From NCBI GenBank assembly GCA_902774845.1, contig CACYJU010000006.1, forward strand, positions 1-64,000: a DNA stretch of 64,000 nt. The letters are read 5' to 3'. The DNA comes from an uncultured Bacteroidota bacterium. Its GTDB lineage: Bacteria; Bacteroidota; Bacteroidia; Bacteroidales; P3. The notes under the pieces are model-generated. The model saw nothing but the letters and a program-made list of their open reading frames with translations. It had not been told where the DNA came from and did not search any database. Shown one piece after another: positions 13,979 to 40,925 of this stretch; position 1 is the stretch's first letter; every line of letters starts with the position of its first letter. The translations under genes and the position numbers were made by a program.

Positions 13979-16360
13979 TTACTGGGCGTCTCTTACCAGG
14001 CGGACGGAGTTGGCGTTATAGTAGCTGTGGTTCCAATCGATCGAGAACTGGCCATCCTCGAAATTGAGCACTCTCGGAAGATAGCCGGTGCCCTCTTCGA
14101 CAAGGCTCACGGTGCTGGTGTAATAGCGACCTATGAGTCCGGCCGAATGGTAATAGTCGGTATCGGTCCTATATCCGGCAGCGGGCAGGAAGATGCATCC
14201 ATTAGCCTCAAGCAACGTCCACTGTGTCGAGTTGTAGGTGTTGGTCGCATAGGTGGTGCTTGTCGCATTGATGCCCGTCGGCAAGGTGACAGCGTCGGGA
14301 TGGTCGTAGACGTCGGGGAAGATGATGAGGCCATTGACACCGTTCACGTTCGCCTTGACAAATCGGGCATTCTCCACGCCGTTTACGGTGGAGGCGCTAC
14401 GAGCGAAATAGAGGTACTCCTGCTCGCTGCGGGTCATAACCCTCCACATGTTGGGTGCATTTCCGCCGTTAGAGATGGCGTTGAAGACACCCCAGTCGGC
14501 ATTCTTATAGGTTCCCGTAAGGTTGTTTCCTGCAGAGCTGCCAGGCCAATAATGGACTCCCGTCGTGCTGGTTGAATAGGGCTGGTAGGCTGTGGCGCCG
14601 CTGTTCCAGCCGCTGGTGCCGAATCCGAAGAGGTCGATCCAGCCAGCGTAAGAGGGCGAGATGGTGCCAGAGGAGATGTAGTCGTACTGATGGTCGGCAA
14701 AACGCCATGTGCCCTCAGCGGTGCCGCCGGTGGCCACAGCGTGGGTTCCGGCGATCTGGTATTGAAGGTTGCCTTTCGAGAAACGGATCTGCCTGCCGGC
14801 ACCCACCGAGAAGAGGGAGGCCGACTCACCTATGGCATCGAAAGGTCCGATGGCCAGATAGAGGGTGTCGACACTCGGGCAGCCATCGCCGTTAGTGTAT
14901 TCGTAGGTGTACCTTCCAGACAGTTCGTAGGTGGTCGAATGCCAAGTGTAGGAGACCTCGGAGGTCGTCATCACCTCGACATTATGAGTGCCATAATACA
15001 TGGTAAGGTTCAGGGTCACCACGCTGTCGCATCCAGCAGCGTTGGTGAGCGTCTGAGTTGCCGAGCTCTCCGAAGCGGTGTATGTGTTGCCGTCGATCCA
15101 GGTAAAGCTATCGCAACCGTTCTGCACGTCGGTGGCGGCGTTGCTGACGTTGATGACCAGATGGAGGGTGTCGGTGCTGGCGCACCCGTCGAGGTTGGTG
15201 TAGTTGTGGGTATAGGTGCCGCTGGCGTTGTAGGTGGTGCCATGCCAGAGGTAGCTGTCGCAAGAGGTCTGGCTCTCAGCGTTATAGGTGCCGCTGTCGA
15301 TGGTGAGATGGAGGGTCAGGATGCTGTCGAAACCCAAGAAGTTGCGAAGGATATGGCGATAGTCGCCCGAGGCGGTATACTCGGTACCGTACCAGTTGAA
15401 CCGATCGCATGCGATAGCCGTAGTGTCACCCTCGCTCCTACCGAGGATAGCGATGATGCTGTCCTGATAATGGACTATCGAATCGTAGACGTGGGTGATG
15501 GAGTCGAACCGATGATTCCAGTCGTTTATCACATCGTTGAGGGTGCGCAGGTTGACCGCATCAAGGTCGTCGGTGGGGTCGCTCACCTGCTTAATCTGGG
15601 TGTTGGCCGCATTGCCGATGGCGGCGACATCGGCGAGCGACTGCGACTCAGAGGTGAGGTATCCAGCATCGTTGTCCAGCTCGCTCACCGCCGTCGGGAT
15701 AGTCGGGGTGTTGATGAGGTCGTTATAGTCGTTGGTACCCCCTATTGCGGGCAACTTCACGAAGCTGCCACCCGTCAAGAAAATAGTGTCGTTGCTGATG
15801 CTCAAAACCTGCATCTCCTCATAGGAAGTGAGGAATCCAGCATCGTTCTCCAGCTCGCTGGTCCTGGTCGGGATGGTCGGGGTGTTGATAAGGTCGTTAT
15901 AGTCTTTATCCCATTCAGTGAAAAGAGGGTCAAGTTCATCAAAGTTGACTCCACTTATAATGCTGTCTGCGACACAAGCCCTCAACGCATAAGGCACGCT
16001 AGTCAGCTGTTGGACTATAGTCAAGGTATAGTTTGACCCACCTGTCGGATCAACCTCACTCTTGATGAAGAAAGGACCTGCCGCCCAGTCGATACCTTCG
16101 AGGCTATTGGACGAAGAGCCTATCGTCACGGTGAAGAGACCGTTGGCGTTGGTGGTCACCGTCTGACGGTCGCTGTAGACAGCCGTCCCGTTCTCGGAAC
16201 CCTGAAGGATGGAGATCTGCACTCCCACGTCGCCGTTGCAGACGAGCCGTCCGGTGGCGTCCCTGACTACAGCTTGATAGGTCATCAACTGCGGCGCCTG
16301 GGCTTTTGCCGACAAACCGCCTAAAACCGCCGCAATTAAAAAGAGCATTACTTTTTTCAT
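13979..16360 (-). CDS. Chimeric secreted protein: tail-fibre-like repeats, CDxxxW repeats, C-terminal FISUMP-like domain
   Basis: A 793-residue exported protein (signal peptide MKKVMLFLIAAVLGGLSAKA; start 16360 chosen because it begins the signal). The N-terminal domain (YQAVVRDATGRLV...LTSVPYALRA) is followed by two copies of a motif like phage tail-fibre linkers, DYNDLINTPTIP...SELxNDAG. A short coiled-coil-like segment comes next, then four repeats of about 40 residues with CDSYLW...GCASTDTLHLVI. The C-terminal 270 residues start FSVGAGRQIRFSKGNLQY and end NANSVRLVRDAQ, resembling domains of Bacteroidota surface proteins near the Fibrobacter major paralogous family. The CDxxxW repeats are shared with both giant proteins upstream. 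No T9SS sorting domain is seen. Role unknown, probably surface interaction. Confidence 0.75.
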   Translation of the reverse strand: MKKVMLFLIAAVLGGLSAKAQAPQLMTYQAVVRDATGRLVCNGDVGVQISILQGSENGTAVYSDRQTVTTNANGLFTVTIGSSSNSLEGIDWAAGPFFIKSEVDPTGGSNYTLTIVQQLTSVPYALRACVADSIISGVNFDELDPLFTEWDKDYNDLINTPTIPTRTSELENDAGFLTSYEEMQVLSISNDTIFLTGGSFVKLPAIGGTNDYNDLINTPTIPTAVSELDNDAGYLTSESQSLADVAAIGNAANTQIKQVSDPTDDLDAVNLRTLNDVINDWNHRFDSITHVYDSIVHYQDSIIAILGRSEGDTTAIACDRFNWYGTEYTASGDYRHILRNFLGFDSILTLHLTIDSGTYNAESQTSCDSYLWHGTTYNASGTYTHNYTNLDGCASTDTLHLVINVSNAATDVQNGCDSFTWIDGNTYTASESSATQTLTNAAGCDSVVTLNLTMYYGTHNVEVMTTSEVSYTWHSTTYELSGRYTYEYTNGDGCPSVDTLYLAIGPFDAIGESASLFSVGAGRQIRFSKGNLQYQIAGTHAVATGGTAEGTWRFADHQYDYISSGTISPSYAGWIDLFGFGTSGWNSGATAYQPYSTSTTGVHYWPGSSAGNNLTGTYKNADWGVFNAISNGGNAPNMWRVMTRSEQEYLYFARSASTVNGVENARFVKANVNGVNGLIIFPDVYDHPDAVTLPTGINATSTTYATNTYNSTQWTLLEANGCIFLPAAGYRTDTDYYHSAGLIGRYYTSTVSLVEEGTGYLPRVLNFEDGQFSIDWNHSYYNANSVRLVRDAQ

Positions 16361-16370
16361 GTATGGATGT

Positions 16371-16458
16371 ATTTTTTTATTGCTTGATTGCTTTATTGCT
16401 TGATTGCCTGAATTCATTTGTCCAATCACTAATCACTAATCACTAATCACTAATCACC
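16371..16458. repeat. 8-bp and 7-bp repeats between two surface genes
   Basis: TTGATTGC units (8 bp) followed by four TAATCAC units (7 bp). Confidence 0.9.
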
Positions 16459-16461
16459 AAC

Positions 16462-16953
16462 TCACATCTTCACTATCCTATAACTGTTTTCAGAGCGACC
16501 CACGGAGAGGCGCAGCACATAGCTGCCCGAGACATAATCCTTCATCTCGATGTTCTGTTCCGACCCTTGGAACCGTCCTTTCTGCAGCAGTTTTCCATCG
16601 ATGCTATAAAGCTCGTAGTTCATATCCTGGACATCGTTTCCTATGCTCACAGTAATCTTGTCGGCGGTGGGGTTGGGATAGACGCTGACGTCGAAATCGA
16701 GAACCTGCACACCGTCAATCTTCAACTCCTCGATGGTATATGTCTGCTGGACACCCTCACGCAGGTTAGCCGCCTTAGCGCTGGCGTTGGTCACCTTGCT
16801 GTATGCGGTCATAACTGCCGGCTGTCCCATCGTGTAGCTCATGCTTCCGTTTGAGCCGCTGACGTCGCCTCCGGCAATCCCGAAGGTCGACTGCGCCATA
16901 AGGCCGACACCCGGCAGTAACAATGCTACAATAAGAAGTGCTTTTTTATTCAT
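16462..16953 (-). CDS. Small T9SS type A sorting-domain protein
   Basis: A 163-residue secreted protein. A signal peptide (MNKKALLIVALLLPGVGLMA) is followed by a short domain with SGSNGSMSYTMGQ, and from about residue 86 by a complete type A C-terminal sorting domain: VSVYPNPTADKITVSI, YELYSIDGKLLQKGRF and YVLRLSVGRSENSYRIVKM. This predicts outer-membrane export through the type IX system and surface attachment. The cargo part is only about 60 residues, so the protein is mostly sorting signal. The SNGSMSYTMGQ domain is frequent in Bacteroidota proteins that precede large surface proteins; its function is not known to me. Confidence 0.85.
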   Translation of the reverse strand: MNKKALLIVALLLPGVGLMAQSTFGIAGGDVSGSNGSMSYTMGQPAVMTAYSKVTNASAKAANLREGVQQTYTIEELKIDGVQVLDFDVSVYPNPTADKITVSIGNDVQDMNYELYSIDGKLLQKGRFQGSEQNIEMKDYVSGSYVLRLSVGRSENSYRIVKM

Positions 16954-16954
16954 A

Positions 16955-17038
16955 ATATGGTGTATGGGTGTAATGGTGTAGGGGTGTAAAGGTGTAAAGG
17001 TGTAATGCGTGAATGCGTGAATGTGTTAGTGTTTTGGA
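16955..17038. repeat. 8-9-bp repeats (GTGTAATGG, GCGTGAAT)
   Basis: Tandem GTGTAAAGG/GTGTAATGG units run into GCGTGAAT/GTGTTAGT units between two surface genes. Confidence 0.88.
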
Positions 17039-17043
17039 TGCGG

Positions 17044-18033
17044 TCACTGTTCACTCTTGTTGACTGGTTCTGTTTCTTCGGGAGCTGGGGTCTGTTCCGG
17101 TTCGCCCTCGGGTTCCTCCTCATCTGAGGCTTCAACGTCCAGGTAGTTCTTCTTTGTTTCCCACGACTCCTCTCCTTTGTTCTTGTCTTTTTTCTTCCGT
17201 TTCGACTTGACCACCTCTTCGTCGTCCTCATCCTCCTCGTCTTCCATAAAGCCGTCGTCCTCATCCTCGTCGTCGTCCAGCCAGAGGTCGTCTTTTTTCT
17301 GATGCTGCATAACATGGCCTATCTCCTTGCCGAAGGGGACACCCATACGCAAGGTCACCTCCAAACCGCGACTCAGACGCTGGTCCAATGCCGGCAGCTG
17401 GTCAAGGCTGGGATTCAGCACGGTGACATCGCCACTCTGCTCCCTACGGGAAAAGCTATTAGAAAAACCCCAGTTGTAGCCCACCTCGCCCGAAAGGATG
17501 ATGGTCCATCCGAAGCCATAAATCGGGTATTCCAAGCCAGCACCACAGAAGATGCCGAAGTCATGCGTCCTCATGCTGCTCCGCGAGAGCTGCATCGCGA
17601 TGTCGCCCGTGTAGTAATCGGTATACTCGACGCCGCCGTCCATCACCACGTTCCATACCGGCGCCGCGATGATGTAAGGCGAAAGCAAGGTCTTCTTTAT
17701 GGTGAAGTTGTACAGCAAGCCCAGACGGGTGTCGATGCAGTTTGCCCTCAGGCGGTAGTGGACATCCTCCCATTCGAGGTCGGCGCCCTTGCCAGCATAA
17801 GCCACCTCAGGTCGGAGGGAGAATCCCACCTTGGTGCGGAACTGAAGCCAGGCACCAGCCACCGCGTTCACGGTCATCTTGTGGTGGTAGACGTAATAGA
17901 TGGGGGCCGTAAGACGGTAGTCACCCATGCTGACGCCAGCCTTCACACCTCCACAGAACATCTGGAGGGGATGCTCCACCTGAGCCGAAGCGCCATAGGA
18001 CAAAAGCATCACGAAGGCCAGAGCGGCCGTCAA
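17044..18033 (-). CDS. PorT-like outer-membrane beta-barrel protein with long acidic tail
   Basis: A 329-residue protein with a signal peptide ending SYGASAQ and then alternating amphipathic strands typical of an eight-stranded OMP_b-brl/PorT-family barrel (FCGGVKAGVSMGDYRL, SLRPEVAYAGKGADLEW, RLGLLYNFTIK, GAGLEYPIYGFGWTIILSGEVGYNWGF). The last 90 residues are not barrel but highly charged: runs of Asp/Glu (DDDEDEDDGFMEDEEDEDDEE), a Lys-rich patch and a Glu/Pro tail. No ATG starts the frame; a TTG at 18033 does, and an in-frame ATA-AAG-TTC nine codons upstream would give a fuller signal (IKFISRFRL). Placed between T9SS proteins, it may anchor or assist them; this is inference. Confidence 0.7.
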   Translation of the reverse strand: MTAALAFVMLLSYGASAQVEHPLQMFCGGVKAGVSMGDYRLTAPIYYVYHHKMTVNAVAGAWLQFRTKVGFSLRPEVAYAGKGADLEWEDVHYRLRANCIDTRLGLLYNFTIKKTLLSPYIIAAPVWNVVMDGGVEYTDYYTGDIAMQLSRSSMRTHDFGIFCGAGLEYPIYGFGWTIILSGEVGYNWGFSNSFSRREQSGDVTVLNPSLDQLPALDQRLSRGLEVTLRMGVPFGKEIGHVMQHQKKDDLWLDDDEDEDDGFMEDEEDEDDEEVVKSKRKKKDKNKGEESWETKKNYLDVEASDEEEPEGEPEQTPAPEETEPVNKSEQ

Positions 18034-18054
18034 CCTAAACCTTGATATGAACTT

Positions 18055-18081
18055 TATAGAATGCGTGATTGCTTGAATGCG
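18055..18081. repeat. Short 8-bp repeats
   Basis: GCGTGATT, GCTTGAAT and GCGTTAAT units before the stop of the lipoprotein gene. Confidence 0.7.
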
Positions 18082-18681
18082 TTAATGTGTTAGTTTGTTT
18101 TCCGCCGACAGTCCGTCGCCGTCTTTAAAGACCCTGTAGCTGTCGGGCTCTATGATGACTCCGTTCTCGTCACGTTTGTCTCGCATCACGATGGCGTACG
18201 AATAGTCTTTTATCCCGTTCTCCTGCTTTATGCCAGAGATGACAGTCACCATATCACAGCTCCAACCCAGAGTTTCGTCCATAGCTTTCTCTATCGTGTA
18301 GACCGTGATCTTCTCCCCCTCCCCTATGACGTGAGCCTCCTTGGTGGCACCCGTCGCGTTATCCTGCCATTCGCTGTAGCTCGCCACATTGCGTCCGTTT
18401 TGGTCAGCCACCACCCACTTCATATCATAGAACTCGCCGGCAAAACCGTCGGAGGCATAGACCAACTTCACAGGCGAAACCATATACTCACCGTCTACAT
18501 TCACCGGCGTGAAGCCTTCGTATATCGGCATATACTGACGCAGAGAATCCTGCTCGTCCAACGACAAGACCCTCTCGGGTATCCTGTCGTTCAATACCGG
18601 CAGCAAGATAGTCTCTCCCGTGTCTTTCATGCACGATGCCAAAAGCAGGCACGCAGCGGCGATATATAGACTTTTTTTCAT
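18082..18681 (-). CDS. Hypothetical lipoprotein in the surface locus
   Basis: A 199-residue lipoprotein: signal MKKSLYIAAACLLLASC with lipobox Cys at residue 17, followed by MKDTGETILLP. The mature part contains beta-rich sequence (MVSPVKLVYASDGFAGEFYDMKWVVADQNGRNV, EKITVYTIEKAMDE) and a SYAIVMRDKRDENGVIIEPDSYRVF segment. No family was recognised. It begins 47 bp after the stop of the 14-kb giant gene and shares its strand and the next barrel gene's, so it may be part of the same surface apparatus. Confidence 0.75.
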   Translation of the reverse strand: MKKSLYIAAACLLLASCMKDTGETILLPVLNDRIPERVLSLDEQDSLRQYMPIYEGFTPVNVDGEYMVSPVKLVYASDGFAGEFYDMKWVVADQNGRNVASYSEWQDNATGATKEAHVIGEGEKITVYTIEKAMDETLGWSCDMVTVISGIKQENGIKDYSYAIVMRDKRDENGVIIEPDSYRVFKDGDGLSAENKLTH

Positions 18682-18727
18682 TGCGGGAATTCGCTATTGT
18701 GTTAATCTGTTAGTGTGTTTGCGTTTC

Positions 18728-21700
18728 TTATCTCAACAGGAGTACCTGACCCACGATCTCGTGAGTCACGTCGGGATAGACCTCGGTGACGTAGATGATG
18801 CGGTAGACGTAGCTGCCCATCTCACAAGGCGTGCCGTTGTGTGCACCATCCCACCATTCGTTGATGTTATCGGTGCGGAACACGAGTGCACCACTGCGGT
18901 TGTAGATATCCATCTTGAACGAGGTGATACCCGTGCCGACAGCACCGAACTTACGGTTGATCTTCAGGTCGGGCGTGAAGACATTGGGTACATAGAGCGC
19001 CTCGCGCAACATCGGAACCACAACACGGGCGGTGTCGGTACACTGTTCGGTACCCACAATCAGCACCACCACCATCGAGTCGTTATCCTCGTTGGCGACT
19101 CCCGAGATCTCGCTCTCGTCGCCATAGAAGAATCCGTCGACATACCACTGACGCCAGGTCTCGGTCTTGGTCTTGTCGACCGCCGACCAGTCAAGCAGTT
19201 CGTGGTAGAGTGCCACCGGGGTGACCTCCATAGTGGCGTCGACAACCGAAACAGGCTCAAGCGAGATGGTGTCAGACACAGCGCACTGCATCAGTCCTTC
19301 ATATCCAGCCAGGACGGTGAAGTGGGTGTAGCGGTCGGGTGTGACAGTTACCGCACGGTTGTTGGCCTGGTATTCCAGATCTGCGAGCGAAGGCACCGAA
19401 CGCCACTGGAAGGCGGTGGCCTGAGTCTGAGCCGTGAGGGTGTAGTTGGCAAGGTTGCAGTCGTATTCGACATCGATATGCACCGGCGGACGCGGCACCA
19501 CCAAGAGGTAGAGCGTTATCACGCTGTCGCATCCGTTAGAGCTGGAGATAGTCTGCTCGTAGGTGCCGGTCGACACAAGCATGCGGTTGAAGAACATATA
19601 GTTCTCACCGTCGCAGATGGTGTCGCCGTAGAAGGTAGCCTGACTGTAGTGGATGGTGAGGTGCAGGTGCAGCAAGCTGTCGCAACCATAGCGGTCGGTC
19701 ATCATGTATTCTGCCTCCGCACTACTGTCGAACGACTGACCGTACCACTCGTAGTGGTCACACGACGAAGCGGTGATGTCGGTCTCCGAAGGCTGATGTA
19801 CGGTGAGCGTGTAGGTGTCGTTGACCGAGCATCCGTTGGCGTCGACGAAGGTCACCATGTAGGTGGTGGTCTGTGCCGGCGATGCCACAGCCGTAGAGCC
19901 GTTGATGGTCAATCCAGTGGTGGGCGACCAGATGTAGTCTTGCTCGCCGTTGGCCGACGAAGCCTGAGCCTCGAGGGTCACCTCCTGACCGAGACACATC
20001 TCGTCCTCCTGGACGGTCTGTCCGTTCTCGTCGCGGCTTACCAGATCCATAGCAATGTATGAACCAGGTATGACGATGTCGACGTAAGCGGTGTCGCGGT
20101 TCTGGCAGGCGTCACGCACGATGAGGCGCACACGGATGATGGTGTCGGTCAGCGGCTGCATGAAACGCTGCAGACTTGAGGGCGACTGCTCGACGAAGAA
20201 GAAGTTGCCAGAGCAGTTCTCGCTAGCCACGTCGGTGGTCACCTGCATGGTTGCTGACGAGAGGTCGGGCATGCTGTACTGGCAGTTGCCCATAGCCACC
20301 GAGTTGGTGACTCCCATGTTGACCAGAGCGTTCACATCAATATGCGGTGCTACTGTATCGTGCACGTTGTAACGGAAGTTCCATTCAAACACCACGCCGT
20401 CGCAGTCGACGAAGTTATACTTGTAGTTTCTCCAACCGTCGCAGTCGGTACCTCCCTGGGTAACCACAGCCGTAGGAGTGGCTATCGGACGTCCACAGAC
20501 ATCCTCGACCGTAGGCACTGGGAAGTTTTCAAGTGCGTCGGCAAAGCAAGCCACGTTGCCCGAAGTCGGAGGTTCGACTCCCACGATATGCGGCAAGGTG
20601 GTGTGGTGCACCACGTAGGTGTAGACCCAGTCGTGGGTGTTGCCTGCACAGTCGGTATAGGTATAGGTGTAGACTATATTACCGTGACAGCTGTTGTTGG
20701 ACACATAGTCAGAGCTGTCGATGGACATCGATACCGGACTCAGGACATCGCCGCACTCGTTGACCACAACAGGAAGTGTGGGCTGCATGGCAGGCGAGTT
20801 GACATCGTAGCACTCGACGGTCTCAGTGGTAGTCACCGTCGGGAAGGTGAAGTCGGGAGCAGACACATTATAGATGTAGTTCCAAGTGTAGGTCTCACCG
20901 TGGACGGTGTAGTGATACTCGTATGTTATCACACCGCAGGTGTCGTTATAGTCGACAGAGTATACGATAGTCGAGTCGTTGTTGAACGGTATCGTCTCGC
21001 CGCATACCACAATGTCAGGACGCTGGCTTGCGGTAGGACGGGTAGCATAAGAGACGCAGTTCACATCGCGGGTGCTGTCGGCAGGAGCCTGGAACGGCTC
21101 GGGACGCACGTCGCAGACATAGTACCAGTCGTAGGTACGACCGTCGCAGTCGGTGTAGCGATAGAGATACGACACATAACCCGAATCGTGGGCATTGAGA
21201 TAGGAGGTGCGGCTTATCGAGTCGGGCACTATCACATCGCCACAGTGGTTGGTCAACGTATCGGGTTGTGGTTGATAATCCATAGCTGCGTTGGCGCAGA
21301 CATAGGAGACGGTGTCGTTGTCCGGCACTATGAGTTCGGGATGGACAATATAACGAGTGTATGTGAGAGTGTCGCTCAACGTACCGGAGCAGTCGGTATA
21401 GACATAGCGGAAGGTGCGGTTACCAGTACAGTTATTCGGGTCACCGTTGGTGTGGGTATCCACCGAATCGATAACTGGGACTAGCTGCACTCCGCAAGCG
21501 TCGACCACAACGGGAGTCTGGTTGGGACGGCCAGCCGAGTCGAAGCAAGGCACCGTATCGTGATCAGGCGAGAAGCCCTGTACCACCGTCGGCATCAAAG
21601 CCTTGTCTATATAATAGGTGAACGACCAGTGGTATACCAACTCGTTGGATGGGTCATCGGTTCCAGGTATGTAGGACGGGTCGTAGTAGTTGTAGTTGTA

Positions 21701-24700
21701 AATAACCGTATCCTTACAGTTGTGGTTGGTCCTCACTATCGAAGAGTCAGCGTAGGGTTCGAGCACTCCTCCGCAGACATCTATCACACGCGGCATCTCA
21801 GGACGCACCACGAGTGTGTCGCAGTTGACGTGTGCTTCAGTAGACACCGGAGGATTGCCCACCTCGGGCGACTGGAACGGGTTGGTGTGACGTACGACGG
21901 TATAGACAAAGTTCCAGTCGAACTCGTTACCCGCACAGTCGGTATATATATAGTGGTACGTGCGAGTGCCGGTCACCGTGTCGTGTGCCGCATTGGCCAT
22001 AGTGTCGGCGTAGGTCACCAGGCGCGGGCTCAACGTATCACCGCACACCGAAACTATCACCGGAAGGTCGTTGCCTGTGATGGTGTCGCCATCGACGAAA
22101 CACTCAACGTTCTCGGTCGTTCTGGCAAACTGGTGAGTAATGGGGTTCTCAACCTCGTAAGGAGCCGTAGTCGGAAGCACCACATGGGTGAAACTCCACA
22201 CCAAGGTATCTCCACCACAGTCGGCATAGGTATAGTTGTATACGATGTTACCGGTGCAGTAGTTGTGAGCCACATAGTCGGAGCTGTCGATAACCAAGGT
22301 CGGAGCGTTAGTCGACGCGGAGTTGATGGTGTCGCCACAGCTGTTGATCACCACAGGCAGTGTGGGAGCCGAGAGCGGCGAGCTCACATCGTAGCACTCT
22401 ATAGTGTCGCGGGTGGCCACATCGGTCGGGAAGCTGAACTCTGGCGGATCTATGGTATAGATGTAGTTCCAGGTGTACTGCTCTCCGTGGATGGTGTAAG
22501 TATAGGTGTAGGTAACCATACCGCAGGTGTCGTTAAAGTCGACCGAGAAGGTGGTGTCAGGATATTCGCCGCTATCCCACATACGGTCTTGCGGTATGCG
22601 CACACCGCAGTCGTCGATGATAGGATACTGAGCGGTGGTAGGCACCGAAGCCTGAGCCAGACAGTTCACCGTACGGCTGCTGTCGGCGGGTGCCTGGAAC
22701 ACGTCGGGACGCACGTCGCAGACATAGTACCAGTCATACTCCTGTCCGTCGCAGTCGGTATAGCGGTAGTGGTACGACACATAACCCGAATCATGGGCAT
22801 TGAGTGTCGAAGTACGCCCTATCGAGTCGGGCACTATCACGTCGCCGCAGGCGTTAGTCAGCGTGTCAGGTGACGGGACGTAGTTCATCGCCGCATTCAC
22901 GCAGGTGTACGACACGGTGTCGTTCTGCGGGATAGTCAGCGCCGGATGCTCCACATAACGTGTATACTCCCACGGAAGTATGTTGGTGTGGGTACAGTCA
23001 CGATAGCGGAAGGTGTATTTCACGTAACCGGTGCAGAGCGGATTACCACCGTTCATGTCATGATGCTCGTCCACGATAGTGTCAAACGGAGTGAGCGTGT
23101 CGTTGCAGGCATCCAGCACCACAGGCATGAGCGTAGGCAGTGTTGCATCGGCAAAGCACTCCACGGTATCCTTGTTCGGATTCACCTCCTGCACTATCAC
23201 CGGCATCTGAGTGCGGTCGATATAATAGCGGAAATACCAGTGATAAGCCAGCTCGTTAGCCGGGTTGTCGACTCCGGCTATATACGATGGGTCATAGAAG
23301 TTATAGTAGTAGGTCACCGTATCCTGGCAGTGGTGGTTGGTGCGCACAACCGACGAGTCGGCGGCAGGAGCCACCGGATTGCCACAGACGTCAACCACCG
23401 TAGGCAACTGAGGACGCACTGCAAGCGAGTCACAGGTCACATGAGCGACCGTGTCGACCAGCGAGGTGGGATTCATCGGGTCTTGCGGCACCTCTGTAGG
23501 ATTGGTGTGACGCGATACGTTGTAGCGGTAGGTCCACTCAAAGCTGTTCTCTCCAGAGCAGTCGGTGTACACATAATGATACGTGCGCGTGCCCGTGACG
23601 TTGTCATGGCTAGCGTCTGTCAGGGTGTCGGCGTAGGTAGGCATCGGAGTAGCCAAAGTGTCACCACAGACAGAGACAATCACCGGAAGGTGAGCGCCCC
23701 AGATAGTGTCGCTGTCGGCATAGCATGAGTCGAAACACTGCACTGCACCGCTGGTCGCAGCATAGTTGCCGGTGTTGATGTCAGGCAGCTCGTGAGGAGG
23801 TGTCACAGGTGCGATGATGTAGATATAGTTCCAGTCACCCGAACGGGCGCAGTCTTCGTAGTGATATGTGTAGATGACGGTGTCCTTACAGCCGTTGCTC
23901 TTGATGGTACGGACCGGACCGGTAGGAGTTATCACAGCATCGATGCCAACACATCCGGTATGAGTGACCACTGGCAGGTCTCCTATGGCAGGAGGCACCG
24001 TGTCGGCTATACACTCAAGGCTGGTATTAGTCACGTCGGCAGGTATGGTGAATGCCGGCGGGTTGTAGATGTATGCGTACGTCCAGGTATAAGTCTGAGC
24101 AAACACCTCATAGGTGCTAGTGTAGGTTATCATGTAGCAGCCACGGTCGGTGTCGACGCTATCGCGCACGAAGTCGCTGAAGACCACAGGCTCGCCACAG
24201 ACAGACTCACTCGGCTTGACAGGAGTCACTATCTGCCCCACACAGGTCACCGCCACTGTGTCGTTGGGATAGCCGTCGAAGGCAGCAGGCTTGATGACAT
24301 GCTTGCGCTGCCAGATATATTCGCGACCCGAGCAGTCAGTATACTTCCAGTTGAAGGTCACAGAACCATTACCCGTTCCGTCGACATTGATGATAGCCGA
24401 GGCGTCGGTCACGGGGTTGCCGCCGCCGTCAAGTATCGGATTACCCGATTCGTCCACCGGTATCGGAGTCACAAGACGTCCGCAAGCGTCGCGCATCTCA
24501 CCACTCGGCGTGTTGAACGACACAGCCTCCAATGCCGAGTTGGTACACGGCAGAGTGTCGACCAAGATGGTCGGATTGCTCATCGCAAGTTCTGGCAGTG
24601 TCACGTTGTATGTGAAGGTCCAGGTAGTGTCGTGACCAGCTCCCGGAGCCTCGCAGTCTTGATAGGTATAGGTGAAAGTGGTGGTATCCATACAGGTGCG

Positions 24701-27700: not shown

Positions 27701-30700
27701 CTCCAACTTCACCTTTATAGGTGTTATCGACTGTCCGAGGCATACATCCTGTTCATAATCGCCGCTGCCAGTGGCCTGCGAGAGCACCGGATCGGGATTG
27801 AGGGAGATATGCACCTTCGCTGTGTCGGTACAGCCGTTGCCGTCAGTCACCACCACCTGATATGTGGTGTCGGGAGTACCCGGTTTGAGCGAGAGCGGAT
27901 AGGTCGGGTCGGTGCTGGAGAAGCCAGCAGGCGTCGAAGTCCATACGCTGTGGGCTGTGCCACTTGGGTTGTTCACCGTCACCGTAGTAGACACACCGTA
28001 GCCGTTGCAGGCAGAGGTGTCGATAGTGTTGGATGTTGTCGAGAGGTTAGTTGCAATGGTAAGTTTGTTCTGCGGGATGATCACCTGTACGTGAGCGTGA
28101 GCAGTGTCACCGCAAGTGTCTCTCACCACAACGGTCACGTCGATGGTGTCGTTGCGGTCGGCACGCTGCAGGTATTCAGCCAGCGAAGCGGGAGTCTGCT
28201 CAATCACACGGAGGCTCGAGTTCTCGCAGCCCGAAGTGCGAGGCAGCACAGTGTCTTTCAGGTCAGGTATGAGGTATTTGCAGTCGCCGTTCTTAGCCAC
28301 AGCCGTCACTATAGGCATAGCCGAGAAGGTAGGTTTGTCGGTCACCAGCCAAGCATGCTTGATGGTATCGGGTGTTGCCGACGTGCCGCAGGAGTTGGTG
28401 TAGCTGGCAGCCCACCAGTTAGAATGGTGACAGCCGTTGACCTCTTCAGTGCCGTGAGTGACGGTAGCTGTAGCCGAGAGATTGCAGGCATCGGTCACCA
28501 CGAAGTTGGCAGCAGTAGGCTCGAAACGCTCATGGGTTGCATCACAACCCCAGTCCTTGTCAGCTTCTACGCCGGTAGCGAGAGCTATTGACGGCGTAGA
28601 GGCCACGGTGATGAAGCTGCTCGGGAATCGTGCGGTACAGTTATGTGTAGTCTCAGTTACGATAAGAGTGTCGGTGAAGGAGTCGCAAGCACCGGTACTG
28701 CGTATACGGGCAGTAGCGGTAGTACCCGAAGATGTCTTAGAGACAAACGAGTGGTCAGAGTGCCATTCGTGAGTGAAAGGACCAGTACCTTCGATAGTGG
28801 CGGTAATCACATAGTCCTCACCGGCGGGCAAAGGACAGCCCAGATCCTGAGTAGGCTGGACAAGCGTATCACCAACAAGGGTGATAGCCGGCACGGTAGA
28901 GGTTATAGGAACATCCACCGTATCAGAACAAGAACCGTATGTGTCGGTTATGATAACCTGATAGTTGCCAGCAGGCACACTGGTGAAGACACCTGTAGTG
29001 TTTGTATCCAGTCCTGGTGCTGCGAAAGTGAAGACGTTTCCGTCTACCGTCTGGGTGGTAGTTGCCGTAACGGTAAAGTCACCGTTAGCCTCACCATCGC
29101 AGATAGCGTTATGATATGATGCCAGAGTTCCGGTAATCTCGTTTATTCCGATATTAACCTGTTCCTTTCTCCAACAACCGTCCTTATCCACAACCAGAAC
29201 CTGATGCGAACCAGCTTCCACATCTCTGAAACGACGGCTTGTTGAAGGTCCTTGTTCACCATGAGGATCCATCGGGTCAATCGGATCATACGGGTCTAAC
29301 GTAAAGCTGAATGGTTGTTCACCTGTGTTTGTCGGGGGAATTTCTATAGCTATTTTACCACCATCACCATCACAGTTAGCAAGAGAATCAGTTATTGCCA
29401 GAATCAGGTTCTTAACAACAAAATTGAAAGGAATATTCTTAGTTCTACGGCAACCGAAATTATCTTCAGTCGTTACATCACAGTTAATTGTTCCTCCAGT
29501 GAAACTTGCAGGGGGTGTTAAAGTAAAATGGTCGTTATATTTTGAACCAGTCCAATCACATGCGGCCCATGTCGAATCCAGTTCTGTTGTATAACTCCAC
29601 ACGTGGCGCAAATGATCTTCACTTAATGACAACTCCCAACTGAACAGCCATCCATTATCATATTTCCAACCATCCTGAACAGTGACTGTCCACTCTCCAT
29701 TCAATGGACAGCCGACCAACTCTTCAAAGCCCTGGTCTGGTTTATAAATTTGTTTTCTCGTTGCAAGTTTAGATGAATCAACTATGTAAACCGACTTATT
29801 ATCAGCAGATCTTCCACTATGAATATTACTCGTATGGTATACTTTCTTAGTTTCATTCGCCCACTGATAGTTCTGATTTGTTGCTGAAGACCAAACATAA
29901 TCCCATCCTATTCCAGGCCTATTGTCATTCTTAGAATCATCACAAACAAAATCGTCGGATTTTCCACCATCGTATGGGTCTATTGTCTTTCCCAACTGAG
30001 CATCCCTCTTATTATTCCCCCAACTATTTATTCCTGTGGCGACACCTGATGAGTTGTACTTATAGTTTGTACCTTCCCATCCTTTCATGTCCTCTGAAAT
30101 CCCTACAAGACACGACGAACTACCACTACCGCTATTCAAAGAGCCATTACTATATTTCATCACCGCCACAGATCTCCTCACGCCAGTAGTCGGATCTGGC
30201 GGACACGTAAGCTTAATAAACAAGTCACCAAGCCAAGAATGCTCCATGTTTATCTTAAGATACTTGATATCATTTTTTGATTTTACATATCCGCGGCTAT
30301 GTTCCAAATCATAATCTTCAAACTGATAAAAACTAACCGATGAGGTGTATGCACAACCTTCTCCACAGTCTATACCATCAGGAAGGAAAATGGTCTCAGT
30401 ATGACCCATCGTGGCTGTTGTCGCTGGCTGAGAACGATCAACACGTACATAATCGTTCTCATCCTTAAGGTAACCCACCGAAATATCAGTCGGCACACCT
30501 GGACATATCAGGAATGGCTCATCACTCCACCATGCCACGCCAATACCGTCCGACACCCTGACACGGCCAGGCATTGTCAAAAGACAAGACCCTGTGGATG
30601 CAGTAAAATTCAAGTCATAACCCACAACACTATCAAATGTCAAGGAATATGGACTTGGTGGTGTAAAGTTACTGCCATTAACCTCAACAGGCATGTAATG

Positions 30701-32947: not shown

Positions 32948-33024
32948 ATATATGTATTTTTTCCACAATTAAAATGCTCACTATCACCCTTTCAGGTGGC
33001 AAGCGGACATAATACGAGACACTA

Positions 33025-33096: not shown

Positions 33097-33142
33097 ATTC
33101 GCAACAACAATTTGCAACCATTAATCGGTGTCAAAAAACAAT

Positions 33143-33173
33143 AAAAAAGGGTGCCGAAAAAGCACCCTTTTTT
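33143..33173 (-). terminator. Terminator between the two giant genes
   Basis: Perfect 12-bp stem (AAAAAAGGGTGC with GCACCCTTTTTT) and a 7-base loop, 36 bp after the stop at 33210. Confidence 0.92.
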
Positions 33174-33175
33174 AC

Positions 33176-33209
33176 TATTGTCTATTCACTATTCACCTTT
33201 CACTATTCA
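33176..33209. repeat. Short repeats after the second giant gene
   Basis: CTATTCA/CACTATT units of 7-8 bp between the terminator and the stop codon. Confidence 0.75.
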
Positions 33210-36200
33210 CTATCTCAGCAGTGTCACCGTGCCTATCTGCTTATGCCAAACATCAGGCTCTATCTCGTTGCGGTAACGAGCGATATAGGTGTAGGTGGAA
33301 CGCGGGCACTCAATGCCGTTGTGGTCGCCCCTCCAGCCTTCCTCCAGGTTGGTGGTGTGGAAGACCAGCAGACCCTCACGTGTGTAGATATAGAGTTCGT
33401 ACTCTATGATGCCACGTCCGATGGCGTTGAAGGTCTTGTTGATATTCAGGTTGGGAGTGAACACATTCGGGAACCAGAGCTGGCTCTTGCGCAAATAGAG
33501 AACTGTATCGAGGACATCTGTGCATATACCGTTGACAGCCAAGAGTGAGAAGCGCACGGAGTCGTCGTCACAGAGGGCGCGACCGCTGATGGTGTTCTCG
33601 TTGGAGACCTGGATGTCGTTGACATACCAGGTGACCTGCTGGGTGTTCTGGCTGGTCGAGGTGGCGGTCCAGTCGAGGTCATCACAGGTGAGGAACGGTT
33701 TCTGGAAGGCAATGCCTGCGACAGGCAGATCGAGCGGTGCGAGACGGATGGTGGCCGTGACCTGGCAGAGCATGGCGGTGCCATAGCCTGCATTCAGCGT
33801 GTAGTCGGTTATCTGCGGCGGGTTGACCTCTATCTCAAGGTCGTGACGCTGGTTGAAGAGGTCGGGATCGCTCGGCTGACAACTCCAGATGTGGTTGACG
33901 TCGGCATTGATGCTACCGGTTACGATATAATGTCCGAGTTCACAGGTGTGGTACTCTTCGATATTCACCGTGATAGGCATACGCGGCACCACCTGGAGGG
34001 CAACGATACTGTCGCATCCGTTGGTGGCAGTGATGGTCACAGTGTGGTTACCAGCGGGATAAGCATGACCACGGTAGATGAGCGACTCACCCGAGCATAC
34101 GGTGTCGACATACGAACCGTAGCGCGTGTTGTTGATAGTTAGATGGAGTGTAATGGTGCTGTCGCATCCGGCATGGTTCTGGATGGTCACCTGCGGAGTG
34201 TTGGTAGAGTAGGTATACGTCTGTCCATTCATCGGCCAAGTGTAGGTGTCACAACGGGTGACGGGAAATACCGACGAGGAAGCGTGACTAATGGTCAAGT
34301 GGAGGTAAACCGTGGAGTCGCAACCCACGCTGTTGAGTCCAGCGTAGACATTCGGCGCGTTGGTCGAATAGGTGTAGGTCATGCTGTTCATAGGCCAGGT
34401 ATAGCTGTCGCAGGCGGTATGGGCGTCGATACCCGAAGTGCTGCGGTTGATGGTCAGGTGCAGCACGATGGTCGAGTCGCAACCGAAGGAGTTGCCGTTG
34501 GGCAGTGTTATCGACGGTGTGTTGGTCGAGTTGGTATAGGTCTGGCCGTTGCGATACCAAGTATAGGTGTTGCAGGCGACTTCCTCGTCCACTCCGCTCG
34601 AGGAGTGGTTGATGGTCAGATGGAGAGTGTCGGCTCCGGTGCAGGTACCTATGGTATAGGTGTCCACTATGACGTCGGAGTTGGTACGCGTGTAGCTGTG
34701 ACCACGGATAGTCCAGGTGTAGGTGTCGCAAGCGGTGGCGTAGTGCACCTGATAATCGTTATGGTAGACCGTAAGGTTAAGCGTGGTGGTAGAGTCACAT
34801 CCAGCGGCATTTGTGGTGGTGTAGGTCGGAGTGTTGGTAGACTCGGTGTAGGTCACACCATGCCACTCGTAAGTCTCACAAGCGGTAGTGGTATATATAG
34901 CGTTGTTGGAGTGGTTGACTGTGAGGTTCAAGGTCACTACAGAGTCGCACCCAGCCGCGTTGGTGGTGGTGTAGGTGGCGGTATTGTTCGACGAGGTGTA
35001 GGTCACGCCGTGCCATGTGAACTGATCACAGACGACATAGGTCTCCACGCCTGTCGAGGCCGCACCGTCAACATCGACCGTCACCGACTTCTCAATGGAA
35101 CATTCAGCATCGTCGGTGATGGTAACCGTATAGGTTCCGGGAGCGAGGTTTGAAAGCGAGGTGCCAGTCTGTGAAGTCACGTTGGTGGCACCAGTACCGC
35201 TCGAAGTCCATGCATAATGGTATTGAGGAGAACCGCCGGCCACGCCAGAGAGTGTCACGGTGCCATCGTTGGCACCAGTACAGCTCACATTGGTGTGATC
35301 GAGCTCGTTGGCAGTAAGCGGCTGCGGCACTTTCACCTCCACATCCCAGGTAGCACGGTTGCCACAGTGGTCTTCGATGGTGATATGCACGTCGGTATTG
35401 TCGTCGATATCATTGCCAGGCAGCGGAACTTGTATCATCTCAGCGATGCCGCAGTTGTCGGTGGGCTGCATGAGGGCGATGATGTCAGGTACACGATAGC
35501 GGCAATCATAGCCGAGCACTTCGGCGTCGACATCATCGAAGGTGGTGGTGAAGGCCGGATTGGTGCCGTCGACGGTGCTGAACGAGATGGTAGCGGTGTC
35601 CTTACATCCGTTGGCGTCGGTGAGATAGAGGGTGTCTGCATACTCGGTGCAGGTCCCGTTGGCAGGAATGGTGGCGGTGGCGGCGGTGCCAGTGTAGGAG
35701 TTCTGGTTGCCATGCCACTCATATATATAAGGTGTCTGCGCGTTGGTAATGTTCGGAGTTATGACATAGTTGCCCGACATGCGGGGGCATCCGCCGGCTC
35801 CGTCGGGGGCTGTAAGGGTGAGGTTTGGCTTGGGATAAGCATGGACATGCAGCGAGACGGTCGAGTCGCAGCCGCTGGTGGTAGTAAAATGCTGTTGCAG
35901 ATCGCCAGCCGCCGCAAAATCGCCCCAGTCGCCATGCCAGTTGTTCAGCGGGAAGTTGTCGGGACAGATGGTGGTGTCGAACGTAACCGTTATTTCGTTG
36001 CTTATCGTGAGGTTGAGCGTCACAATGCTGTCGCATCCCATAGCTGTGGTCAAGTTGGCCGTATAGGTGCCCGACTGCGTGTAGGTCTGCCCGTTGGCAC
36101 TCCATGTGTAGGACTCGCAAGCCTGGGCATTCACGGTCTCGCTTACCGATCCAGATATCGAGAGCACCAATGTGGCGGTGTCGGGGCAGCCTGCAGGTGT

Positions 36201-39200
36201 GAGGCCTGCGTCGACATAGGTGCCAGAGGTGGTGTAGGTCTGATTGTTGCGAGCCCAGGTGTAAGGTTCGCACTGTCCGTTGACCTCCTCGGTGCTGTGG
36301 ACGGTGGGATTCATCGTCACTGTCACGATATTCTCATAGGTGCTGGTGCAACCGTATTCGTCGCGGAGGAAGAGGTCACATGATTCGGTGCCGTTGAAGT
36401 TATCCGGTGGGGTGATTTCCATATAGACACCGCTCTTGGTGGAGTTCCAACCGCAGGTAACCCACGAAGAATCGAGGTCAACAGTGTAAGACCAGCTGTC
36501 AGGCAGGAGTTCCTCGTTAAGGCCCAGCTCCCAGTTGAAGATATGACCATTGTCACCACTCCATCCATCAACCACCTCTATAGACCACGTACCGTTCAGC
36601 GGGCATGTTATCAGGTTGTTGAACGTTTCCTGTGGGACGTAAATCTGTGACATATTGGCCAAATCTGATGAGTCAACAGTGCTATTATGCACATTAGCGT
36701 CGTCATAAATCAAACCGGTACCACCGGCATACACATATCCACGATTGGTGTTTTCTGACCAGATATAGTTCCAACCCACACCCAACTCGTTACCAGATGC
36801 CGTCGGGTCGCAACTTGTACTGTTACCAGAGTTAGGTTCACCGAAATTAACCCCATGGTTGCTGGATCCAACTCCATCAACCCACGAATCATATCCTGAG
36901 GGAATCTGTGCGTGGCATGTAGCAGAACCACTACCACACTGGCTCAAAATAACAGAACGCCTTCCACTAGGACAGGTTATAGCTATATAGATATCACCGA
37001 TAAACGTGTGCTCTATATTCAACATTACATAGAGTAGGTCGTTTGCATTTCGTATTGTTGCACCTGCCGAGAAGTCTGAGAATGTAACTGATGAACGGTA
37101 GAAGCAGTTGCCGTTACAAGGTTCCCCATCAGGAAGCAGTATAGTGTCGCTAACACCCAACGTGGTGGCAGCACCACCACTGGGACGTACCACATCAATA
37201 GCTCCGACACCGTCGGTCGACACATATATATTAAAGGGTTCACCATGACAGAGGTTGAAACTGGGTCGTGTGGCAACCTGGAACACACCAGCCACCCTGA
37301 CACGCACTGGTATAGAGATGCAGTCGCTGTTGTTGCGTCTGACCTGAAGCATCACACCATATCCTGCCGTACGGTCGTAGGTGTAGGTAAACTGCGTTCC
37401 GGTGAATTCCTGTATAAGTCCACCAGTAGATGAAGTTAAACGCCATGTGTAGCTGTATGTACCGTTACAGGTGTTCAGTTTCTGCACACGGAGCGTCATC
37501 GGCGTGTTTAGACATACATCGGCATAGTAGTAACCGTCGTCAGCAAGATGCAACGGGAAAGGTTTGTTGTCCTGATAGATGTAGAACGACTCGAAGTCGC
37601 AGCAACCAAGGTTGTTGGCCGTCACCGTCCAGTTGATGGTACGTGTAACGGTGCATCCCATCGCATTGGTGGCGGTAATGGTGAACGAGCCGGAGCCGGC
37701 TGCCGTAGGTGTGCCAGAGAAGGAGCCGTCGCTGTTCAATGTCAACCAAGCCGGCATTCCATTGGCGGTGAAGGTTGCACCCTCATGAGAGCCTTCGGGA
37801 GGATAGCCGTACATAGGTACTCCCACATAACCACTCACAGTGGAAGTCGTGGCATCGTACTGCACATCAAATACATGAACCGTAGCCGGCACACGAGAGC
37901 TGTAGCAATGCTGATCAGTATTGTAAGCTGCCACGTAATAGGTGGTGGTGGCACTCACGTTGGTATGGTAGGAGTAACCCGTGTAGATAGGTGAATCAGC
38001 AAGCACATCGTCAAACCACTGCAGCTGTAGGTTGCCCTCGTCATCACGTACTGTGGCGGTAAGATCGACAGCCTGCGGAGTGCATATTGAAATAGCCTGT
38101 GTCGAGGGAATATGTGCAGGGCAGATAACCTGCAGTTCGTATGAATCGCTGGCCGAGCAGACATCACCGTCTATAGGAGCAAAAACCGAGATAGTGGTAG
38201 TTCCGAGCGAATGAGTGGTGATGATTCCATTCTCATCAACGGTGGCAACAGACGGATCAGATGAAGACCAAGTCAGGACTCCATTATTACCATCGCGATT
38301 AAGAGTAACATTGGGTTGACCTCCAAGGTAACACATAACCATCGAGTTAGAGAAACCGAAATTTACCGGACGCGTATCGCACGGCTCTATGCAAATCTTG
38401 ATATTGGGTCGCGAGGATGTTGTGTATTTAGAACCAGAATAGGAACCTATCGTTGCAGGTATAGCATCGTAGGTGTCACTGTATGAATACAACACGGTAC
38501 TACCCGTGGTAGAGGTATAGTAGAACGATGATGATGCTGTGGAGGTTGCACCACAGTCTACAGCCACAACCAGGTTGTTTATACCAGAATAGGTGAACGG
38601 TTCGGTAAGCTGAATCACATTCCAGCCTGCCACGATATTCCACGTACCGCTATACACAAGCTGCAAGTCGCTTGCAGGCACCCAGTCGGCAGTGGAAGAG
38701 AATGTCGATGCCGTGGTCTCACCAATATAGATGTCGACGACTCTGGCCACACTGTTCGAACTGTATGCGTTAAAACCTATAGCTGTGATAAGTCCAGGTG
38801 TACCGATTTCCTCAGCGGTATATATCATCTGGTCATAGCTGTTCTTGTAATATCCGTACAATGGAGATGCACTCGTAGTACTGGTTCCTGTGCCAATCTT
38901 GCGGCAGCCGTCGCCAGCCTCAATGGTGTAGCGAGCACGCTCTTTGCAGTAACCTGCCATCTCTGAAACCGCAGTTATAGTAACACGTCCTTCAACCCCA
39001 GTGAACGTCACATTTCCGTTTGCATCAACGGTGGCGACAGCGGTGTTACTACTCTCATAACTGATAGTTCCATTACCTGGTGTAAGATTAGCCGACAAAT
39101 TCGGCTCTGCAAAATCACCACTGCCTATCACGTAAGTATATGAGGCAGGACCGTCGAATGCAAAGGTACCAGTGCGATGCGTACAGGCTTCGGAGATACA

Positions 39201-40640
39201 GAATGCGGTATTCACACGACTCGAGCCATAGGAGCCACTAGTTGCCAAATCGTTCACTCCATAGTGGGTACCGTCGCTTTGATAATACCATACGGTATTC
39301 CCTGTTGTGGCTGTATATCTAAAGACATACGAACTTCCATCATAATCGCCTGAGTTATCGTCAACTGCCACCACAAGGTTTCCTCCGTCATAATCAAATT
39401 CCTCATTCAAGTCAAAATAATTCCATGTACCATTACCAGAGCAGTTAAGTGGACCGGAATACACCAACTGCAACCCAGCGGTTATAAACTCAGACGCCGC
39501 ACCGCTTGCAAACGACGAGCGAGAGGTGTTGGCCATGTATATCTTCACATTTGTCTTTGACGTCATCCCTGACGTATATCCGTATTGGAAACCAATCCTC
39601 TCTATTGTGCCACCGCTGGGATATCCTATTTCGTCCGTTGTGAATATCATCTCAACCAAACTGTAGTTGTAGAAATTGTTGACCGGTGTGTTGTATGTTG
39701 TCGAAGTACCAGTTCCCACTTTCACACAGCCATTATTCACGTTGATGGTGTAGGAGGTAGACTTGTCGCAGTAAGTGCCAGAGACAGCCACCGTAGCCGT
39801 AATGGTAACCATACCCTCCTGTCCAGTGAAAGAAACAGCTCCAGTCGTTGCGTTAACGGTAGCAACCGCCGTATTTGACGAGGAATAGGTTGGAGTACCC
39901 GAGGGTGTAAGATTGTTTACAAGAGTAGGAGCGGTGAAGGTATTTCCAATGAGGTGGTTGATAGTGGTAGTCACAGGAGTGGAACCGTTGCGGAACTCAA
40001 AAGTACCAGTACGAGGGGTACAATATCTTATCAGCCTAATATTCGACAAATAAGCGTCAACCGATGTACCTGTTGTAGAGGTACCTGGATCGCTGCTGTC
40101 CTGATGCTTGTACCAGTGCCTACCTGTAACAGATGTGTAATAGCAACTACGACTGCAACCACCACTTGTGCTGCAACCCTTACCCATAACGGCAACAAGG
40201 ATAGCCTTACCCGCAGTATGTTGGAAATCACTGCTGAAATTGAAAGTATTCCATCCTGTGGTTGAGGTAAACGACGTGTTGCGATACACCTGCGTAGCCC
40301 CAGAGGTAAAGGTGGCGAAAGTTGTGCTGGTATTCAATGTGTAGCTGGCATCAACATCCTTCATCCATATCGTCATCTGAGCACCGGTTGTGGTACTGTT
40401 AGATGATACGTTATAGGCAATACCCGTGATTGTGAGGGCGCTGTTCAGCTGTGTCGCATCAGACGGTGTGTAAAGGTAGACATCGTATTGCCAACCATAG
40501 AAACCCGGCAACGGATAATAATTGGTCGACGTACCCGTACCAATTTCAATTGTCTGAGCCTTAGCACTCCCACACATCACCATCATCACCACTGCAGCAA
40601 CCGAAAAAAACGAACTTAAACGTGTAATAATGTTCCTCAT
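33210..40640 (-). CDS. Second giant T9SS type B surface protein (2,476 residues)
   Basis: Signal peptide (MRNIITRLSSFFSVAAVVMM...SAKA) then three tandem modules of about 270 residues, each with a GTGTSTT start and a BIG2-like SSNTAVATVDANGxVTFTG part (about 30-850). A putative Ig domain (VGVPMYGYPPEG...AWLTLNSDGSFSGTP, about 937-997) and a P-domain-like region (about 1163-1373, with GTWSIEVVDGWSGDNGHIFNWEL) follow. Eight or nine CDxxxW repeats (CDTYTWPMNGQTYTYS type, about 1446-2200) are interleaved with HYR/SprB-like parts. The last 90 residues form a type B sorting domain (FPNVFTPNLNINKTFN ... GIIEYELYIYTREG). The C-terminal 350 residues are paralogous to those of the 14-kb gene. Its own promoter box is at 40712-40705 and a strong terminator follows. 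Confidence 0.9.
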   Translation of the reverse strand: MRNIITRLSSFFSVAAVVMMVMCGSAKAQTIEIGTGTSTNYYPLPGFYGWQYDVYLYTPSDATQLNSALTITGIAYNVSSNSTTTGAQMTIWMKDVDASYTLNTSTTFATFTSGATQVYRNTSFTSTTGWNTFNFSSDFQHTAGKAILVAVMGKGCSTSGGCSRSCYYTSVTGRHWYKHQDSSDPGTSTTGTSVDAYLSNIRLIRYCTPRTGTFEFRNGSTPVTTTINHLIGNTFTAPTLVNNLTPSGTPTYSSSNTAVATVNATTGAVSFTGQEGMVTITATVAVSGTYCDKSTSYTINVNNGCVKVGTGTSTTYNTPVNNFYNYSLVEMIFTTDEIGYPSGGTIERIGFQYGYTSGMTSKTNVKIYMANTSRSSFASGAASEFITAGLQLVYSGPLNCSGNGTWNYFDLNEEFDYDGGNLVVAVDDNSGDYDGSSYVFRYTATTGNTVWYYQSDGTHYGVNDLATSGSYGSSRVNTAFCISEACTHRTGTFAFDGPASYTYVIGSGDFAEPNLSANLTPGNGTISYESSNTAVATVDANGNVTFTGVEGRVTITAVSEMAGYCKERARYTIEAGDGCRKIGTGTSTTSASPLYGYYKNSYDQMIYTAEEIGTPGLITAIGFNAYSSNSVARVVDIYIGETTASTFSSTADWVPASDLQLVYSGTWNIVAGWNVIQLTEPFTYSGINNLVVAVDCGATSTASSSFYYTSTTGSTVLYSYSDTYDAIPATIGSYSGSKYTTSSRPNIKICIEPCDTRPVNFGFSNSMVMCYLGGQPNVTLNRDGNNGVLTWSSSDPSVATVDENGIITTHSLGTTTISVFAPIDGDVCSASDSYELQVICPAHIPSTQAISICTPQAVDLTATVRDDEGNLQLQWFDDVLADSPIYTGYSYHTNVSATTTYYVAAYNTDQHCYSSRVPATVHVFDVQYDATTSTVSGYVGVPMYGYPPEGSHEGATFTANGMPAWLTLNSDGSFSGTPTAAGSGSFTITATNAMGCTVTRTINWTVTANNLGCCDFESFYIYQDNKPFPLHLADDGYYYADVCLNTPMTLRVQKLNTCNGTYSYTWRLTSSTGGLIQEFTGTQFTYTYDRTAGYGVMLQVRRNNSDCISIPVRVRVAGVFQVATRPSFNLCHGEPFNIYVSTDGVGAIDVVRPSGGAATTLGVSDTILLPDGEPCNGNCFYRSSVTFSDFSAGATIRNANDLLYVMLNIEHTFIGDIYIAITCPSGRRSVILSQCGSGSATCHAQIPSGYDSWVDGVGSSNHGVNFGEPNSGNSTSCDPTASGNELGVGWNYIWSENTNRGYVYAGGTGLIYDDANVHNSTVDSSDLANMSQIYVPQETFNNLITCPLNGTWSIEVVDGWSGDNGHIFNWELGLNEELLPDSWSYTVDLDSSWVTCGWNSTKSGVYMEITPPDNFNGTESCDLFLRDEYGCTSTYENIVTVTMNPTVHSTEEVNGQCEPYTWARNNQTYTTSGTYVDAGLTPAGCPDTATLVLSISGSVSETVNAQACESYTWSANGQTYTQSGTYTANLTTAMGCDSIVTLNLTISNEITVTFDTTICPDNFPLNNWHGDWGDFAAAGDLQQHFTTTSGCDSTVSLHVHAYPKPNLTLTAPDGAGGCPRMSGNYVITPNITNAQTPYIYEWHGNQNSYTGTAATATIPANGTCTEYADTLYLTDANGCKDTATISFSTVDGTNPAFTTTFDDVDAEVLGYDCRYRVPDIIALMQPTDNCGIAEMIQVPLPGNDIDDNTDVHITIEDHCGNRATWDVEVKVPQPLTANELDHTNVSCTGANDGTVTLSGVAGGSPQYHYAWTSSGTGATNVTSQTGTSLSNLAPGTYTVTITDDAECSIEKSVTVDVDGAASTGVETYVVCDQFTWHGVTYTSSNNTATYTTTNAAGCDSVVTLNLTVNHSNNAIYTTTACETYEWHGVTYTESTNTPTYTTTNAAGCDSTTTLNLTVYHNDYQVHYATACDTYTWTIRGHSYTRTNSDVIVDTYTIGTCTGADTLHLTINHSSSGVDEEVACNTYTWYRNGQTYTNSTNTPSITLPNGNSFGCDSTIVLHLTINRSTSGIDAHTACDSYTWPMNSMTYTYSTNAPNVYAGLNSVGCDSTVYLHLTISHASSSVFPVTRCDTYTWPMNGQTYTYSTNTPQVTIQNHAGCDSTITLHLTINNTRYGSYVDTVCSGESLIYRGHAYPAGNHTVTITATNGCDSIVALQVVPRMPITVNIEEYHTCELGHYIVTGSINADVNHIWSCQPSDPDLFNQRHDLEIEVNPPQITDYTLNAGYGTAMLCQVTATIRLAPLDLPVAGIAFQKPFLTCDDLDWTATSTSQNTQQVTWYVNDIQVSNENTISGRALCDDDSVRFSLLAVNGICTDVLDTVLYLRKSQLWFPNVFTPNLNINKTFNAIGRGIIEYELYIYTREGLLVFHTTNLEEGWRGDHNGIECPRSTYTYIARYRNEIEPDVWHKQIGTVTLLR

Positions 40641-40923: not shown

Positions 40924-40925
40924 CG

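Follow-up and report, generated by a model that had tools for sequence, protein, structure and literature searches.

We report here that the six minus-strand open reading frames (ORFs) found between positions 13,979 and 40,640 of the window (the whole stretch analysed, 64,000 nucleotides of a 2.38-Mb assembly) make up two unrelated neighbouring modules: a resident pair of giants with type B domains, and a cassette of four genes (13,979 to 18,681) that encodes a lipoprotein, an outer-membrane barrel, a small type A protein of the type IX secretion system (T9SS) and a chimeric fibre. The object of interest is this cassette, together with a phylum-wide pair of mini-protein and fibre genes, rather than the giants. 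The ORFs, of 2476, 4746, 199, 329, 163 and 816 aa, lie at the positions and have the sizes given by the original prediction, and its description of a surface locus made of T9SS substrates was borne out. Its further claim, that the six genes are one system, holds for the four genes that it had called accessory, which are truly syntenic, and fails for the giants, which stand outside the set. The features are listed in Table 1.

Table 1. Features of the cassette, its fibre gene and the flanking genes in the window
Feature	Position	Strand	Remarks
tRNA-Ala(cgc)	13804..13877	-	left edge of the cassette insertion site; directly adjoins giant 2 in G054
Cassette gene 4: chimeric fibre	13979..16360	-	793 aa from ATG; the 816-aa ORF opens at GTG 16429; signal peptide
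Fibre C-terminal tip	13982..14845	-	end related to FISUMP (Fib_succ_major) domains
Fibre CDxxxW beta repeats	14846..15409	-
Fibre shaft	15401..15994	-	NTPTIPT/SELxNDAGFLT repeats; helix 15485-15559
Fibre N-terminal Ig-like domain	15995..16297	-	Bdello_MAT_N-like
Cassette gene 3: type A mini-protein	16462..16953	-	163 aa; signal peptide, head of ~65 aa, type A T9SS sorting domain
Cassette gene 2: outer-membrane beta-barrel (OMP_b-brl_2)	17044..18033	-	329 aa; acidic tail; only a TTG start available
Cassette gene 1: lipoprotein	18082..18681	-	199 aa; Cys17 invariant; predicted calycin-like beta-barrel; no Pfam family
Giant 2	18728..32968	-	15 HYR_4C domains, CHU_C; outside the cassette
Giant 1	33210..40640	-	2476 aa; Ig-like, P-domain, CDxxxW repeats, CHU_C; outside the cassette
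FeoB	41205..43619	+	right flank of the giant pair; kept in G054 and G110

The four cassette genes are a true syntenic unit. Of the family's 190 genomes, 42 contain the barrel, 40 the lipoprotein and 39 both, with up to four cassette copies per genome (four in G024). At 42 of the 45 family loci carrying lipoprotein and barrel genes, the four genes follow exactly the order lipoprotein, barrel, mini-protein, fibre, all of them on the same strand; the other three loci hold the lipoprotein and barrel only, without mini-protein and fibre genes. The search for synteny in relatives thus bore out the four-gene set and left the giants unlinked to it: a type B protein occurs within 5 kb of the cassette in the window only and at none of the 44 other loci, some of which are shortened by contig ends. 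An alignment scan with the lipoprotein gave rumen Bacteroidales MAGs, which are the nearest named relatives, and a scan of genome contigs with the barrel as a single-protein query gave no matches. At four loci (L138, L141, L143 and L144) one mini-protein gene is followed by two consecutive fibre genes of ~1100-1160 aa.

The giants carry CHU_C (PF13585) type B domains scoring 33.8 and 36.5 bits (Pfam cut-off 27); the corresponding TIGR04131 matches, at 28.1 and 22 bits, fall under the NCBIfam cut-off of 35. Giant 2 measures 4746 aa from a TTG start and 4739 aa from its first ATG. Only four other genomes (G024, G027, G054 and G110) yielded close orthologues of giant 1, and both giants occur together, with the cassette absent there, in G024, G054 and G027. 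In G054, contig C15 is collinear with the window through DapB, FecCD, an ABC ATPase, tRNA-Ala, giant 2, giant 1 and FeoB as far as the ParB region, and the 4.7-kb cassette is missing between tRNA-Ala and giant 2. The gene comparisons therefore point to giants that are independent of the cassette, as judged from few genomes. Three further arrangements were seen around relatives of giant 1. In G027 (L084, contig C26, 9470-13212), the giant 1 relative adjoins a run of three genes, coding for 384-430 aa, that match only the tip-type domain of the fibre. In G000 (L086, contig C10, 6650-14689) there is a second relative of giant 1, of ~2310 aa, and after it comes a 345-aa protein that has CDxxxW repeats and a type B C-terminus; G024, G110 and G054 keep this arrangement. 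At L079 (G024 contig C35) there are three tandem giants, of which the third, of 2074 aa, precedes the pair and has the C-terminal 724 residues of giant 1 in common with it at 62% identity. Arrays of an 11-bp repeat (TCGTATACAAC, 11.6 copies) lie outside called genes between giant 1 and FeoB, at window positions 40868-41129.

A single six-gene surface system, in which barrel and lipoprotein would serve the giants in place of a PorP/SprF protein, would agree with the common strand of all genes, with the 47 bp that separate the end of giant 2 from the lipoprotein gene, and with the CDxxxW repeats common to the large products. As a conserved system this arrangement is refuted by the 44 cassettes without a type B neighbour and by the intact giant pair and flanks of G054, and as an explanation for the window it is highly improbable. 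The CDxxxW repeats are real, with motif counts of eight in giant 1, one in giant 2 and three in the fibre against shuffle means of at most 0.055. Across the genome, however, the array has 32 matches, mostly in ORFs on other contigs; it is therefore a common module, and the argument that shared repeats betray co-evolution of the three large products was rejected. The proposal that the barrel replaces PorP/SprF was likewise abandoned. No match to PF11751 (PorP/SprF) was found in the barrel, and the giants of G054 have tRNA-Ala and FeoB as neighbours and no barrel gene. The window's genome has three PF11751 genes of its own, on contigs C12, C4 and C3, and across the whole genome none of them adjoins any of the 18 CHU_C matches; the missing PorP neighbour is therefore the rule here. 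The giants are probably served by one of these unlinked PorP/SprF shuttles, and orphan shuttle-substrate pairs have been described in F. johnsoniae (PMC12618676). Giants 1 and 2 resemble giant type B proteins such as SprB in being very large, repetitive and CHU_C-ended, and differ from them in having no adjoining PorP/SprF gene, which is true of all type B proteins of the window's genome. One PorP/SprF gene (L180, G000 contig C3, 5823-6836) adjoins TsaD; both G054 and G024 keep the gene in this place, at a distance of a few kb from their PurL-site cassette.

Presence and absence of the cassette were observed at two sites. The nearest relatives of the window cassette, in G054 and G024, lie beside PurL, and the window lipoprotein groups with these PurL-site copies in the tree (100/100 support). 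The PurL site of the window's own genome has the same neighbours with a 225-bp gap and no cassette. The simplest reading of this pattern is relocation of the cassette as one block; independent gain and loss events at these sites would look the same. Neither a recombinase nor a terminal repeat was recognised for the cassette. The tRNA was rejected as a general integration site, since none adjoins the other cassettes that were tested; the one exception is an unrelated tRNA-Ser at a distance of 5 kb in G024 contig C6. Scans for promoters and terminators gave chance-level results only. Many arrays of 7-8 bp repeats, mostly intergenic, were seen in the window (1-71, 12547-12615, 13918-13963, 16424-16457, 16957-17023 and 33174-33213), with units such as GTGTAATG, AATCACT and TAATAGA. 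Three of them adjoin or separate cassette genes, and they are possible sites of slippage or phase variation.

The mini-protein matches the type A sorting domain TIGR04183 at 39.1 bits (cut-off 23); its signal peptide was read from the sequence. Together with the fibre gene it forms a pair that extends far beyond the family. The fibre N-domain was detected in 103 of 395 sampled Bacteroidota genomes (65 of 171 genera), and a gene for a short type A protein immediately precedes that of the fibre in 30 of the 39 loci compared outside the family (17 among the 19 best and 13 among 20 further loci). The same test gave no upstream mini-protein gene at the other nine, and at three of the 20 further loci a type A domain lies elsewhere next to the fibre. 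In the window's genome about six of 40 type A matches fall in ORFs shorter than 300 aa; assuming ~2,000 genes, the chance of such a neighbour would roughly be well under 1% of genes. No barrel was detected with the pair outside the family, and relatives of the lipoprotein in other families are mostly orphans, with the cassette absent. Lipoprotein and barrel thus look like additions made by this family to a phylum-wide pair, of which no description was found in the open-licence literature.

The fibre itself has a recognisable base, a shaft and a variable tip. Bdello_MAT_N matches were obtained in all 11 family fibres (best 1.1e-10); the window fibre scores 35.4 bits, under the NCBIfam cut-off of 60. 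No T9SS sorting domain was found in the fibre. The monomer model has a mean pLDDT of 58. It predicts an Ig-like base with fair confidence (residues 25-120), then a shaft of pLDDT below 50 with a helix (268-292), beta repeats (320-505) and a partly confident tip. The last 57 columns of a FISUMP template align to the end of the tip with 94.9% probability, against at most 2.9% for shuffles, in an alignment that excludes the row itself carrying FISUMP domains. Fibres of G054 and G110 compared with those of G024 are 87-100% identical in the shaft and then 55, 75, 48 and 34% identical toward the tip, and the G024 C23 fibre has an entirely different tip. A conserved shaft with a diverging tip would fit the pattern of receptor-binding fibres. 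Diversification of the tip by a DGR was rejected, as the genome's single reverse transcriptase is on contig C4 and the cassette on C6. The best Foldseek matches of the fibre model were to the Aureispira grappling hook GhpA (9flp and 9flw; E 3.8e-6 and 4.4e-4), at TM-scores of only 0.12-0.14 and 12-15% identity. These may reflect only tandem beta-domains; phmmer and profile searches gave no match, so that sequence lends no support to homology with GhpA. In a second look, the best structure matches covered the base only (Z of at most 7.4).

A domesticated phage tail-fibre module or a part of a contractile injection system would account for the 37.5% match of shaft residues 177-287 to a Synechococcus phage protein, but this was the sole match among 50,697 phage records. 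In the window, the genes annotated around the cassette are concerned with metabolism, transport and the chromosome, and the partners of the fibre are secretion and outer-membrane proteins; either origin is very unlikely.

The barrel matches PF13568 (OMP_b-brl_2) at 40.4 bits, a generic family that does not single out PorT. An OmpA peptidoglycan-binding domain is present in 31 of the 45 barrels; those of the window clade are without it and have acidic tails or none. In the barrel frame (17044-18081) there is no ATG near the signal peptide and only a TTG at 18033, from which the predicted signal peptide is without Lys/Arg; the true start may therefore lie upstream and be non-canonical. The lipoprotein model is a calycin-like barrel (pLDDT 91) whose fold matches are tied and middling (best Z 8.8), and this predicted fold says little on function.

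Could the barrel be a dedicated translocator that exports the fibre, with the type A mini-protein acting in capping or processing? At all 42 complete loci the barrel and lipoprotein genes come before those of mini-protein and fibre, and no T9SS signal was found in the fibre. The barrel domain has only ~220 residues, however, and the mini-protein and fibre pair occurs outside the family with no barrel detected; a barrel is therefore not a general requirement, and we regard a translocator as unlikely. Somewhat less likely still is a fibre that stays in the periplasm or outer membrane in a structural, non-adhesive role. The signal peptide is the only export signal found in the fibre, and OmpA domains and lipoproteins are frequently structural. 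A purely structural part fits poorly with a tip that diverges sharply on a conserved shaft, as in receptor-binding fibres, and with a partner mini-protein that bears a T9SS signal. The MAT relatives of the fibre, moreover, are surface adhesins (the Bdellovibrio mosaic adhesive trimer, PMC10769870).

We consider it reasonably probable that the four genes are instead a relocatable cassette, separate from the resident giants, which displays an adhesive fibre. The signal peptide would take the fibre into the periplasm, where it may trimerise via shaft and helix. Having no T9SS signal of its own, it would be kept on the cell surface by the type A mini-protein encoded with it, itself exported and fixed to the surface by T9SS/PorV; type A signals serve for static anchoring or for release via PorV (PMC12618676, PMC9143113). 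In this family, barrel and lipoprotein would provide an outer-membrane base, which in most barrel homologues the OmpA domain would tether to peptidoglycan. The variable tip would be lectin-like and presumably adhesive.

Two known systems offer comparisons. Bdellovibrio MAT fibres (PMC10769870) likewise have an N-terminal domain, a shaft and variable C-terminal tips that include C-type-lectin folds, and several copies occur in some genomes. They differ in that the cassette fibre matches MAT_N below the cut-off and that its gene is paired with one for a type A T9SS protein, plus barrel and lipoprotein in this family. In the PorE-PorP-PG1035 and SprF-SprB systems, an outer-membrane barrel and a peptidoglycan-binding part also anchor a surface protein, PorE linking PorP to peptidoglycan (PMC9143113); the cassette differs in its OMP_b-brl_2 barrel, its type A T9SS partner and a fibre in which no sorting domain was found. 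By analogy, the cassette would most likely work like PorE-PorP-PG1035 with other protein families.

More tentatively, and with some doubt, we propose that throughout the Bacteroidota MAT-type trimeric fibres without a sorting domain may be displayed in trans by a dedicated tiny type A protein whose gene lies immediately upstream. Display of this kind would be a new T9SS-dependent mode; in rumen Bacteroidales it would travel as a cassette of four genes, able to relocate and equipped with a barrel-lipoprotein base of its own. For type B giants and their neighbours, the present case means that relatives should be checked before such genes are read as one system. The cell-surface anchor of Bdellovibrio MAT fibres has been stated to be unknown (PMC10769870), and with a MAT-like base domain that has constant gene partners the anchor becomes directly testable. 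If the fibre is carried or held in trans by the mini-protein, a displayed protein would need no sorting domain of its own for T9SS-dependent display.
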